A stretch of 64,000 nt of DNA from Collimonas fungivorans Ter331 (GTDB taxonomy: Bacteria > Pseudomonadota > Gammaproteobacteria > Burkholderiales > Burkholderiaceae_D). The stretch spans positions 3,554,542-3,618,541 of the forward strand of contig NC_015856.1 of assembly GCF_000221045.1 (NCBI RefSeq), given 5' to 3'. Positions 2,654 through 6,692 of this stretch are shown in pieces (the stretch's first letter is position 1; the number at the start of each line of letters is the position of its first letter). Made by a program: the position numbers and the translations under genes. The notes below the pieces were generated by a model. That model was given only the letters and a program-made list of their open reading frames with translations. It was not told where the DNA came from and made no database searches.

Positions 2654-3038
2654 GCATCGTCCTCTTATTACAAATACGGCTAAAGAACAACGATAATCTC
2701 ACCGGTTTGTTATAAAGAGAACGAACTTTTTTGCATGTGCATAGAATCGATTTGCATAAGGGAAATAGCGAATTTGCCGTCCGGCACTCAAGTTACATGA
2801 CTTTAAAGCAATGAAAAACATGCTCCAGACGGCCTGACATAGAGCCATTCCCGAGCCGTATCCCCAAAAGCCACGCAAATCCGCTACAGCTCAGGCGCGC
2901 TTTTTTGTATTCTGTTCCGCCATTTCTGCAGATTGTCGCAAGCAGCTGGCGACTTGCCCTGCCCCTCCCTAAAGTGACGACATGCAACAACGTTTGCCAC
3001 CTACCAGCCACTTAGTTAGCCACTTGAGGAGAATACAA
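2654..3038. other. 385-bp divergent intergenic region between cysT and the IVGKR-repeat genes
   Basis: No credible gene seen. It must carry the cysT promoter (leftward) and the promoter of the small exported protein genes (rightward). The cysT-proximal part is AT-rich (about 2695-2775) and holds TTGCATAAGG at 2752-2761. The right part (2780-2980) shows no clear repeat. An ATG at 2982 would add 19 residues to the downstream protein but lacks a ribosome site and would put charged residues ahead of the signal peptide, so it is not used. Confidence 0.6.
2752..2761 (+). promoter_or_regulatory. Candidate sulfur-regulon operator upstream of cysT (TTGCATAAGG)
   Basis: The 10-mer TTGCATAAGG recurs, in the other orientation relative to its gene, upstream of sbp at 20851-20860. 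On the complementary strand both copies read CCTTATGCAAA, preceded by AATTC 8-10 bases earlier. CysB (LysR family) is the usual activator of these genes in proteobacteria; assigning the motif to it is inference. Confidence 0.4.
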
Positions 3039-3362
3039 ATGAACACAGCACGCCAAGCACTGATCGCCATCCTGTCCATCGCCACCCTGGCCGGCAGCGT
3101 CGCCCCGGCACAAGCAGCACCGCAGCAAACCGAAGTCTCGACACTGGCAACCATCACCATCGTCGGCAAGCGTCCAAGCCACCCAGAGTTCCTGCAAACC
3201 GTGACCATTGTCGCCAAGCGCCTGACTCCGCAAGAAAAGCTGGCCATGGCGCAGGAAGAAGGCTGCCTGCCTACCATCACCATCGTCGGCAAACGCCTGA
3301 ACCGTGAGCAAAAGTCGGTCCTGGCGCAGCAAGAAGCCAGCCGCAAGAAAACTGTCATCTAA
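3039..3362 (+). CDS. Small exported protein with three IVGKR repeats (unknown function)
   Basis: Not a family I recognise. The 107-residue product starts at ATG 3039, which has GAGGAG about eight bases upstream. A clear signal peptide (cleavage near APAQAA, residue about 27) is followed by three copies of a unit: TITIVGKR, TVTIVAKR and TITIVGKR. Copies 2 and 3 continue as LTPQEKLAMAQEE and LNREQKSVLAQQEA, so the unit is a short beta-like strand ending in Gly/Ala-Lys-Arg, then a charged, probably helical segment. One Cys (GCLP) precedes the third copy. It is 39 bp ahead of a sister gene with one such unit. The strand-KR pattern could be a binding repeat or a proteolytic processing site; both are guesses. 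Confidence 0.75.
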   Translation: MNTARQALIAILSIATLAGSVAPAQAAPQQTEVSTLATITIVGKRPSHPEFLQTVTIVAKRLTPQEKLAMAQEEGCLPTITIVGKRLNREQKSVLAQQEASRKKTVI

Positions 3363-3401
3363 CCAGCCGTCAAGTCGCAGTTCCATATCAGGAGATTGCA
3401 A

Positions 3402-3692
3402 ATGAACACCACGTCTAAATTACTGGTCGCCGCCACGCTGTTAGCGACCCTGAGCATGAGCATCAGCCCGGCCATGGCGACAGCGCCGGCCAAGAAAGCC
3501 GCAGCGCAAGCGCAGTCGGAAGACATCCCTCTGCTGATGCCGCCCATTGTGATTATCGGCAAACGCATGACGCCGGAGGAAAAAATGGCTTTTACACAGC
3601 AGCAGCAACAGCAGCGCATACAGGCCATGAAAAAGGTGGTCCGCAAGAAAGCCGAATCAAGCGCCTCGCCGGCGCTGAGCGCAGCCCTGTAG
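3402..3692 (+). CDS. Small exported protein with one IVGKR-type repeat and Gln run (unknown function)
   Basis: Sister of the preceding gene. The 96-residue product starts at ATG 3402 with AGGAG eight bases upstream. It has a signal peptide (cleavage near SPAMATA, residue about 28), an Ala/Lys linker, then IVIIGKRMTPEEKMAFTQ, matching the repeat of its neighbour in both the strand-GKR part and the following (L/M)T.EEK helix. A run of six Gln from CAG/CAA codons (about 3598-3615) and a basic tail follow. Shared signal peptide start (MNT), repeat and spacing argue for tandem duplication followed by divergence. The kinase gene begins 80 bp downstream. Confidence 0.72.
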   Translation: MNTTSKLLVAATLLATLSMSISPAMATAPAKKAAAQAQSEDIPLLMPPIVIIGKRMTPEEKMAFTQQQQQQRIQAMKKVVRKKAESSASPALSAAL

Positions 3693-3772: not shown

Positions 3773-5158
3773 ATGAATCCTGATTCGTACGCCACATTAA
3801 AAAAAAATGCATCCATTGCCTCGGTCTACCTGTCGCGAGGTTTCGACAAAATAGCCAGCTGGGTAACGCAGCTCTCGTGGTGGAAGTTCCTGTTGTTTGC
3901 AGCGCTGGTGCTGGCAGCCGCCGGTATTTTGCAAGAGACCTTGTTTTCCTCCAATGAACTGGTGATTGAAAAAGTCAGCCAGCATTCGAGCAAGCCGCCC
4001 AAGCGCAACAAAGGCAATACCGATATCCGCATCGACGACACCGGCGTCCATATAAAAACCGGTACTTATACCTACGATGGCGATGGCGACAGCGCGATGA
4101 CATCGAAGTCTCCCGCTGCATCGGCACCGGCAGCGGCGGCCGCCGCTGACGCCGCCGACGCCCATGATGAAGACAGCGTACCGAAAACCCCGCCCGTGCC
4201 ACCGGCACCGTCGGCGGCCCCAGCGGCCCCGGCGGCACCTGCGCCGGCTGCACCCAACGCCGCCAGCCTGAGCCTGAGCCTGCCGCCGGAAGCGACCGCG
4301 GATGTCAACCAGGCGATCAACGACGCTGTCGCCGCGATCCATGAAGCGGCCGCCGAAAAAGCCGAGCAGCAGGTGGCCCGCTACCAGAAGAAATCGTCGG
4401 AATGGTTTGTGAATTTTGTGCTGCTGCTGCTGATCGGCCTGTTCGGCACCAAGGCCCTGATGGGTGGCAAGAAGCGCGCCGAAGCCCGCGCCAAAGCCGC
4501 CAATGCCGCCGCCGAGCATGCCAACCTGCAGCGCGAAGTATCGGAAGCCAAGATGCAGATGATCCAGGCCCAGGTGGAGCCGCATTTCCTGTTCAACACC
4601 CTGGCCTCGGTCGACTACTTGATCGAAACCGATCCGCCGCGCGCCTCAGCCATGCAGAAACGTCTGATTCAGTACCTGCGTGCGGTATTGCCGCAAATGC
4701 GGGAAACCTCCACCGTCACCACGCTGGGACGCGAAGTCGACATCGTGCGGGCTTACCTGGACTTGCTGAAGATGCGCATGGAAGAACGCCTGCACATCGA
4801 CCTGCAGGTGCCGGAAGGATTGCGCAGCGCGGCTTTCCCGCCGATGATGCTGCAGTCGCTGGTGGAAAACGCCATCAAGCACGGCCTGGAACGCAAGGCC
4901 GACGGCGGCTACTTGCGCATCAAGGCGGAAGTAGCCGACAATAAGCTGCGCGTCAGCGTCACTGATGACGGCCTCGGTTTCGGCGCCTTCCCCAGCGACG
5001 GCACCGGGCTGGGATTGCAAAGCATCCGCGAACGCCTCAAACTATTGCACGGCGCCGCGGCGCAACTGGAGATTGCGCCCAACAGCCCGAGCGGTGTATG
5101 TTCAACCATAGAGGTGCCGTACCAGGTAGTCGGCGCCAGTAAGGCCAAGCCTCAATAA
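3773..5158 (+). CDS. LytS/YpdA-type sensor histidine kinase with Ala/Pro-rich periplasmic region
   Basis: Membrane sensor kinase of the His_kinase (PF06580) plus HATPase_c type. From ATG 3773 the protein has 461 residues: first membrane span about 36-53, a periplasmic part with an Ala/Pro low-complexity stretch at about 113-165, second span about 213-227, a coiled-coil-like linker, the phospho-acceptor box QAQVEPHFLFNTLASVDYL (His about 271), then N-box LVENAIKHGLE and G-box DDGLGFG. A TTG 24 bases upstream would add eight residues but lacks a clear ribosome site. Its partner is almost certainly the LytTR regulator at 5940. The periplasmic part matches no sensor fold I know. Confidence 0.9.
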   Translation: MNPDSYATLKKNASIASVYLSRGFDKIASWVTQLSWWKFLLFAALVLAAAGILQETLFSSNELVIEKVSQHSSKPPKRNKGNTDIRIDDTGVHIKTGTYTYDGDGDSAMTSKSPAASAPAAAAAADAADAHDEDSVPKTPPVPPAPSAAPAAPAAPAPAAPNAASLSLSLPPEATADVNQAINDAVAAIHEAAAEKAEQQVARYQKKSSEWFVNFVLLLLIGLFGTKALMGGKKRAEARAKAANAAAEHANLQREVSEAKMQMIQAQVEPHFLFNTLASVDYLIETDPPRASAMQKRLIQYLRAVLPQMRETSTVTTLGREVDIVRAYLDLLKMRMEERLHIDLQVPEGLRSAAFPPMMLQSLVENAIKHGLERKADGGYLRIKAEVADNKLRVSVTDDGLGFGAFPSDGTGLGLQSIRERLKLLHGAAAQLEIAPNSPSGVCSTIEVPYQVVGASKAKPQ

Positions 5159-5196: not shown

Positions 5197-5919
5197 ATGA
5201 AATCGATCCCGCGTTTTGCGTTTGTCCTTGCACTGGCCGCTGCAGCCATGGTTCCCTTGCTCAGCAGCAGCGACAGCATGGCCGCCGACACAGTCAAGAC
5301 GGAGCGCCCGGTAAACAGCTTCCAGCAGCTGGAGGTGATGGATGCGGTCAACGTATACCTGACCCAGGGGCCGGCCAAACCGGTGGTGATCGAAGCCGAG
5401 AGTGGCGTCGCTTCAAAGGTCGAGCTGGAGAACAGCGGTTCGACGCTGAAGATCTATTTCGGCGGCCATTCGTTTTTCAGCAGCCGCCACAACGTCAATG
5501 TCTATATCACGGCGCCCGACGTCAGCAGCCTGGGCATTTTCGGCTCCGGCGATCTCAAGATCATCGGCAAACTCAGCTCAAAAGACAGCATCAGGATTTC
5601 CATCTCCGGCTCCGGCAATGTCAGCGGCGAATTGAACAGCCCCACTGTCACTGCTTCCATCGCCGGCGCCGGCGACATCAAAGTCAGGGGCAAGACCCGC
5701 GACCTGAAGGTGTCGATTGCCGGCAGCGGCGACTACGACGGTTTTGACCTGATGGCGGAAAACACCAGCGTCTCGATCGTCGGCAGCGGCGATGCGCATG
5801 TCTACGCCAGCAAGAACCTGAGGGTCTCGACTGCCGGTTCCGGCGATGTCACGTATGGTGGCGACCCGGAAGTGCATACCAGTATCATGGGTTCGGGCTC
5901 AGTCAAGAAAAAACGTTGA
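5197..5919 (+). CDS. Exported DUF2807 / GIN-domain (auto-transporter adhesin head) protein
   Basis: A 240-residue exported protein: signal peptide ending near SMAADT, then a repetitive right-handed beta-structure marked by at least seven turns of the form (F/S/A/V/M)G(S/A)G(D/N/S), for example FGSGDL, SGSGNV, AGAGDI, AGSGDY, VGSGDA. This is the signature of the putative auto-transporter adhesin head GIN domain (DUF2807), whose biochemical role is not settled. ATG 5197 has AGGAA seven bases upstream. It lies between kinase and regulator genes (38 and 20 bp gaps), suggesting one operon; the product may modulate the kinase or be its output. Confidence 0.88.
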   Translation: MKSIPRFAFVLALAAAAMVPLLSSSDSMAADTVKTERPVNSFQQLEVMDAVNVYLTQGPAKPVVIEAESGVASKVELENSGSTLKIYFGGHSFFSSRHNVNVYITAPDVSSLGIFGSGDLKIIGKLSSKDSIRISISGSGNVSGELNSPTVTASIAGAGDIKVRGKTRDLKVSIAGSGDYDGFDLMAENTSVSIVGSGDAHVYASKNLRVSTAGSGDVTYGGDPEVHTSIMGSGSVKKKR

Positions 5920-5939: not shown

Positions 5940-6692
5940 ATGCCTACAGCTATCATTGCCGATGACGAACGTCTGATGCGCGACCAGATCCGCCTGCGCC
6001 TGAGCCAGGCCTGGCCGGAACTGGAAATTCTCGGCGAAGCCAAGAACGGCGACGAAGCGATAGAACTGGTCGACCAGCTGCAGCCCGACTTCACCTTTCT
6101 CGACATCCGCATGCCCGGCAAGACGGGGCTGCAGGCGGCGCAGGAAATCGGCGGCAAAAGCCACATCGTATTCATCACCGCTTACGACGAATATGCCATC
6201 CAGGCCTTCGAACAAGGTGCGGTCGACTACATCCTGAAGCCGGCCGAAGCCGAACGGCTGCGCCTGACCGTGGTCCGCCTCAAGGCCCGGCTGAGTTCAG
6301 CGCCGACCGACATGAGTTCGATGCTGACCCAGCTCGCCAAGCAGATGGGGATCGCCACCAAACCGGTCTACCTGCAATGGATACAGGCCAGCATCGGCCA
6401 GCAGCTGCGCCTGATCCCGGTGCAGGAAATCCTGTTCTTCCGTTCCGATGAAAAATACACCAGCGTCCAGACCGCCGGCTACGAAGCGCTGATCCGCAAG
6501 CCGGTGCGCGACCTGGCGGAAGAACTCGATCCCGACCTGTTCTGGCAGATCCACCGCGCCACGCTGGTCAACGTCAACGCCATCGACGGCATCACGCGCG
6601 ACATGCGCGGCCGCCACCAGGTGCTGATCAAGGGACATACCGAAAAACTGGAAGTGAGCCGCAGCTTCATCCATCTGTTCAAGCAGATGTAA
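5940..6692 (+). CDS. LytTR-family response regulator
   Basis: A 250-residue two-domain regulator. The receiver domain has the acidic pair D8-D9, phospho-acceptor D55 (FLDIRMPGKTG), T80 and K100 with the usual proline after it. The C-terminal part (about 140-250) is a LytTR DNA-binding domain: ILFFRSDEKYTSV, then LDPDLFWQIHRATLVNVNAI and a basic end. It is the likely partner of the LytS-type kinase two genes upstream. LytTR proteins usually bind imperfect direct repeats about two helical turns apart; no such site was identified confidently near this operon. Confidence 0.95.
   Translation: MPTAIIADDERLMRDQIRLRLSQAWPELEILGEAKNGDEAIELVDQLQPDFTFLDIRMPGKTGLQAAQEIGGKSHIVFITAYDEYAIQAFEQGAVDYILKPAEAERLRLTVVRLKARLSSAPTDMSSMLTQLAKQMGIATKPVYLQWIQASIGQQLRLIPVQEILFFRSDEKYTSVQTAGYEALIRKPVRDLAEELDPDLFWQIHRATLVNVNAIDGITRDMRGRHQVLIKGHTEKLEVSRSFIHLFKQM

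Follow-up and report, generated by a model that had tools for sequence, protein, structure and literature searches.

Two small, exported-looking genes in front of a LytS-LytTR two-component system belong to a protein family that, in the reading we lean towards, is a main output of this system: it would be activated by LytTR, dock onto a partner by strand pairing and probably act as a feedback arm. The tie of these genes to LytS-LytTR is real, and it runs mostly via a shared promoter element rather than via gene neighbourhood. The analysed stretch of 64,000 nucleotides (the window) belongs to a host genome consisting of one contig of 5.19 Mb. Open reading frames and Pfam matches give the following order on the plus strand: gene A (3039..3362, 107 aa), gene B (3402..3692, 96 aa), a LytS-type histidine kinase (3773..5158; His_kinase 4.4e-22, HATPase_c 3.6e-9), an exported DUF2807 (Toastrack) protein (5197..5919; PF10988, 1e-45) and a LytTR response regulator (5940..6692; LytTR 4.7e-22, Response_reg 2.1e-21). 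Judged by eye, the divergent neighbours of the locus resemble sulfate-transport genes.

A and B are separated by 39 bp, and inspection by eye places ribosome sites of the AGGAGA type before both and Sec-type signal sequences, ending in AQA and AMA, respectively, at their N-termini. In agreement with the original prediction of two adjacent exported-looking genes with four strand-GKR units, A carries three units and B one, and a profile of the unit returns the same numbers of domains. The first unit of A, TITIVGKR (3150..3173), is conserved and lacks the LTxEQK part. This part follows in the other three: TVTIVAKR with LTPQEKLAMAQ (3198..3254) and TITIVGKR with LNREQKSVLAQ (3273..3329) in A, and PIVIIGKR with MTPEEKMAFTQ (3543..3599) in B.

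Conservation within the genus confirms that A and B are real, exported-looking genes under purifying selection. Not counting the host genome, A and B were each kept in 13 of 14 further genomes, and the one genome lacking a match to either (G001) is 1.7 Mb in size. With 14 aligned sequences each, the host genome included, pooled pN/pS amounts to 0.33 in A and 0.37 in B and drops to 0.17 and 0.05, respectively, inside the strand-KR units, which are the most constrained part of both proteins. Since the genes are conserved across the genus and pN/pS is low in the units, A and B are not a product of chance, as had been argued from the repetition of the unit, and the profile domains agree. Pfam and NCBIfam gave only sub-threshold matches for A and B and no family above cut-off, so a known domain family was ruled out by these libraries, in support of the earlier remark that no described family with this unit was known; Pfam scans detected neither Plug (PF07715) nor beta-barrel domains in either protein. 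The portions of the literature searched contain no description of these small proteins or of their target set. Separately, codons 1-26 of A (3039-3116) show a pS of 0.19, compared to 0.44 in the remaining mature part outside the units, as if a second constraint acted on the 5' end of the gene.

Outside the genus, G028 encodes a single protein of 117 aa with three units; its gene lies directly 5' of the LytS gene of that genome, and LytTR follows further downstream. Used as a query against the 294 genomes (44 genera) of the bacterial family, this protein gave matches in 42 genomes and 14 genera, many of them weak; about half of 15 weak matches that we inspected were small exported unit proteins, and the others fell in antisense frames or in unrelated ones. 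A profile of 25 columns built from 19 units extended the matches to 160 of the 294 genomes and 23 of the 44 genera, with 1-9 per genome (E<=0.1). At E<=0.001, the same profile matched seven of 300 genomes in a sample of the order, six of them inside the family, and two of 299 in a sample of the phylum, both inside the family. The computation thus places A and B in a large family of small proteins that lacks annotation and is nearly restricted to one bacterial family. In the only genome outside the family with a match (G368), and in G115 within it, the match sits in a long, unrelated-looking protein, which indicates that the strand-helix pattern can arise repeatedly by chance or through convergence. 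Unit-like stretches were seen near position 1501 of L195 and of L196, namely LPQVVVQGERMTAEEKVES in an RHS-like frame (L195) and PTVTIRAQRMTPEQF in an M9-like peptidase (L196), both family names being assigned by eye.

The original prediction had placed the family next to LytS/LytTR genes and proposed a profile search scored for this neighbourhood. We fetched 80 regions in addition to four earlier ones; 70 of the 80, hand-picked from the top of the profile list, lay outside the genus. With the window proteins as queries and at E<1e-15, LytS and LytTR were found near units in the genus and in G028 only, and region L129 gave a weaker LytTR-domain match. Most unit homologues inspected lie apart from LytS/LytTR, and such a neighbourhood was therefore ruled out as a general rule. 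The commonest direct neighbour elsewhere is a DUF2807 gene, located on the same strand and downstream in 13 of 13 cluster members from five genera, in 11 of them at most 300 bp from the unit gene. Under a strict rule, this adjacency applies to 11 of 79 unit genes and to none of the 41 unit genes inspected in g56, and DUF2807 is common overall with up to 14 copies per genome. A unit match in an antisense-looking frame of 974 aa (L168) was left out of the strict adjacency count and of the matrix and promoter counts described below. The predicted link thus survives in part: the family is wide and mostly not adjacent to the kinase and regulator genes, and the connection appears instead in an operon found in seven genera, in a shared promoter and in co-occurrence. 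Next to one such operon (L310, in a g48 genome), an extra unit protein is encoded on the minus strand at 3203-3529, just 3' of LytTR, besides the one 5' of LytS.

The promoter element is located upstream of A at 2912..2995 on the plus strand and consists of CTGTTCC...TTGTCGCA (2933-2940), TGG and a -10-like TAAAGT (2970-2975). The sequence 5' of A is conserved throughout the genus and recognisable in G028. The refined consensus reads TCATCCCnc..TTTnTGCATTTCGTCGCAtnCCGnTGGC, about 18 bases more, then CTAYAGTnCACACATC. Upstream of 73 of 77 unit genes from 11 genera, the leave-one-out score of the element lay above the 99th percentile for Markov shuffles (median 36.6 compared to -0.5), a control that is lenient because the anchor positions were fitted using all sequences. 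The 77 upstream regions are those of the 79 unit genes minus B of the window and B of G009, which were left out because they are second in their operons. A whole-region search added strong sites at L127 and L133, so that 75 of 77 unit genes carry the element; no element was found upstream of the unit genes of L131 and L159. In 71 of the 73 sites, TCGCA and AGT are separated by the same distance. Removal of near-copies reduced the 73 sites to 50, and with L164 also dropped, 49 sites make up the search model R1. In the host genome, R1 finds one strong site, at 2914-2992 of the window (E 4.3e-14). A second host-genome site (E 0.007) lies on the minus strand at about 1501-1573 of L328, before an OEP-type outer-membrane efflux gene.

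Among 58 hand-picked genomes in which unit presence was scored by profile at E<=0.001, a LytTR orthologue of at least 70% identity occurs in 36 of 37 unit-bearing genomes and in one of 21 others (G015), counts that, like the site counts below, are confounded by shared descent of the genomes. In G212 and G261 the orthologue is present in pieces, the unit-bearing genome without it (G101) is 86% complete, and the next best LytTR matches among genomes without units reach 64-67% identity. In a second set of 32 hand-picked genomes, 17 have a known LytTR orthologue (for G004 and G009 known from region searches). All 17 carry element sites, 1-15 each, and two of the 15 genomes without the orthologue carry one weak site each. 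We also fetched 20 orthologous lytS-lytTR loci, 19 from unit-bearing genomes and one from G015. An R1 site marks the start of the operon in 18 of them (E<=0.0045); L311 has a weak site (E 0.017) at the correct place before lytS, and no site was found before lytS in L312. A unit gene lies between the site and lytS in five of the 20 loci (g22, g48, g57, g66 and g68), which, together with g1 and g15, gives the operon link in seven genera. In G015, the apparent exception, small proteins driven by the element terminate with the strand and have no helix (L370, L405), suggesting that the strand is the core of the unit and the helix dispensable.

According to the sections of PMC11347149 consulted, LytTR operators are pairs of 9 bp direct repeats, 10-13 bp apart and usually 5' of the -35 region in activated promoters, and the element can be read as such an operator with paired repeats. 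It contains the repeat-like TCATCCC and TCGTCGC 21 bp apart. Offsets of 10 and 11 score higher, and we dropped the 21 bp direct repeat as proof of a LytTR operator, since this offset does not stand out. A different regulator or a sigma factor might read the element, with LytS-LytTR being one more target and the co-occurrence reflecting shared ancestry. The rigid -10 region, as in sigma-factor promoters, the lack of a clear 21 bp repeat and the occurrence of sites before LytS paralogues would fit this idea, but the sites track the LytTR orthologue across the 32 genomes, and in 18 of 20 loci the element precedes the operon that encodes LytTR itself; we regard this idea as unlikely. The paralogue sites, located 5' of loci with paralogous LytS-like kinases (L392, L403, L421), suggest in their own right that the network may extend beyond a single LytS-LytTR pair.

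To describe what else is located behind the element, we read 60 further hand-picked sites, with sites already read excluded and some weak ones left unread. Seventeen of the 60 lead into unit proteins (E<0.05). Among the Pfam families listed (25 of 30) for 54 longer proteins, each being the first frame to reach 150 aa downstream of a site and not always the first gene, DUF2807 is represented 10 times, HAAS eight times, HlyD-type adaptors four times, His_kinase three times, ABC and the M1 peptidase N-domain twice each, and OEP, M56 and M13 once each. Seryl-tRNA synthetase, also among the families listed, stands behind four sites, which may be simple adjacency to unit genes. Overall, RND adaptors, efflux and LytS-like proteins are part of this set. 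From these family assignments, we read the set as envelope-stress-like, and LytS-LytTR has the look of a regulator of envelope stress. In L368, L369, L378, L385 and L422, the element is followed by members of a second family of small membrane proteins, which has a stretch resembling IDGDEFDGPLGA.

This gene content resembles the envelope-stress modules described in the parts of PMC11237479 consulted, in which Toastrack unites DUF2807 with DUF4097 and DUF2154 and is linked to HAAS and two-component systems. Here, too, genes for DUF2807, HAAS, two-component and LytTR proteins repeatedly occur with one another or behind the element, with DUF2807 in the operon of the window and DUF2807 and HAAS being the families most often listed behind the sites. 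Unlike those modules, the present system has a LytS-LytTR pair whose targets are dispersed, and it includes a new family of small proteins; the LytTR example in the consulted parts of PMC11237479 comes from Firmicutes and is associated with LiaI-LiaF-TM. AlgZ-AlgR and other LytS-LytTR pairs have the same domain types, and an autoregulated promoter is suggested here by the position of the element, but the target set and the small proteins are undescribed in the portions of the literature searched. We class the system as a form of Toastrack-type envelope signalling to which a new family of small proteins is attached.

In the mechanism that we favour, envelope stress would cause LytTR to bind the element and to activate its own operon together with the unit genes. 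The exported unit proteins would be periplasmic or membrane-anchored. Their strand-GKR unit would act as a linear docking strand, pairing with the beta-sheet edge of a periplasmic partner, and the LTxEQK part would add a short helix. Docking would tune the partner and, through it or directly, LytS, so that the state of the envelope or kinase activity changes. Candidate partners are the C-terminal domain of TonB, because of sequence likeness, Toastrack, because of gene order, and the LytS loop, by analogy with CpxP. The consulted parts of PMC11237479 contain a proposal that proteins dock on Toastrack near the membrane. The kinase of the window has a long region between two membrane segments, which includes a strand-like stretch, IRIDDTGVHI, at about 4021-4065. 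Comparable stretches, ISIDDNGVRI and ISIDDSGVHV, occur between the membrane segments of the Glaciimonas LytS (L050, 6205-7617), and such stretches are a possible docking surface. As weak evidence from modelling, a strand left unpaired would be in keeping with a linear motif dependent on a partner. The AlphaFold models of A themselves were dropped as support due to their poor quality and mutual disagreement: a single sequence gave two weak strands (mean pLDDT 50.7), and 18 sequences gave helices near pLDDT 80 and no strand (mean pLDDT 60.7, pTM 0.23).

The likeness to TonB, raised in the original prediction as a TonB-box-like strand, is borne out by the host genome. It encodes 27 plug-bearing proteins, whose TonB boxes, picked by eye, align column by column with the strand half of the units; for example, the boxes LPTVTVTGAG and LPAVTITGDR resemble the units LPTITIVGKR and MPTVTVTAKR. 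The units share with the boxes of TonB-dependent receptors a [LM]P.V.[VI].[AG].R strand soon after the signal sequence. With a matrix made from 25 of the 27 eye-picked boxes, two duplicates being dropped, and with 261 other proteins that have a hydrophobic N-terminus as the reference set, 73 of the 79 unit proteins scored above the 95th percentile of that set, and the AUC was 0.98 compared to a mean of 0.44 and a maximum of 0.69 for 60 column-permuted matrices; since the 79 proteins form one homologous set, this match counts as a single likeness and not as 79 trials. The median score was 15.7 for the unit proteins and 13.1 for the boxes in leave-one-out, and the three best-scoring others are 747-962 aa long and receptor-like by eye. 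When 29 small proteins behind newly found elements were scored, 11 of the 17 with units and none of the 12 without units passed the threshold.

The same likeness underlies another explanation, in which the units are receptor-free TonB boxes acting as decoys or adaptors that occupy the C-terminal domain of TonB and either throttle uptake under stress or report TonB occupancy to LytS. Besides the matrix result, it is favoured by promoter-found proteins that stop right after the strand (L370, L405, L393). However, the boxes behind the matrix were chosen by eye and matched to one homologous set, six of 17 promoter-found unit proteins fall below the threshold, and no TonB or receptor family is among the 25 of 30 families listed behind the sites. 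In contrast to TonB-dependent receptors, unit proteins have no plug or barrel and carry one to three copies of the strand, and their invariant R and near-invariant K, a fixed KR usually followed by the LTxEQK part, exceed the TonB-box pattern. We consider this explanation improbable, and similarly doubt the specific form in which receptor-free boxes, one to three per small stress-induced protein, would couple the state of TonB to the LytS-LytTR stress response and cut energised uptake.

CpxP, Spy and ZraP are small periplasmic proteins encoded beside, and controlled by, an envelope two-component system, and CpxP and Spy contain the LTXXQ motif. The unit proteins are likewise small, predicted to be periplasmic, located by two-component genes in the window and equipped with a short LTxEQ helix, so they might inhibit LytS directly or act as chaperones that protect proteins of the envelope, with the LTxEQK helix as the working part. 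The position of genes before lytS, the autoregulated promoter implied by the element and the resemblance of LTxEQK to LTXXQ speak for such feedback. Yet no LTXXQ-family match was obtained for A, B or two relatives even at a cut-off of E 1, some element-driven members have the strand without the helix, and the repeated strand-GKR unit sets the family apart from CpxP, Spy and ZraP, which makes this explanation decidedly unlikely.

The original prediction also proposed a role as signal or as protease substrates; in this reading, the units would be cut after KR, with fragments being sensed by LytS or exported. R is invariant in 19 of 19 units, K is present in most, and the unit forms the C-terminus in several relatives, as such cleavage would predict. 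K is replaced by Q or T in some units, though, and the unit genes are promoter targets, often several per genome, which fits outputs better than one ligand; we hold this last explanation to be very unlikely. One element ties dispersed genes of many genera to a single two-component system, and in the favoured reading the family is a LytTR-activated, docking output of this system. The element yields a target list for each genome, which opens the stimulus, and what the small proteins do, to testing. Should the strands bind TonB, this would be a new control of TonB-dependent uptake from the periplasmic side.
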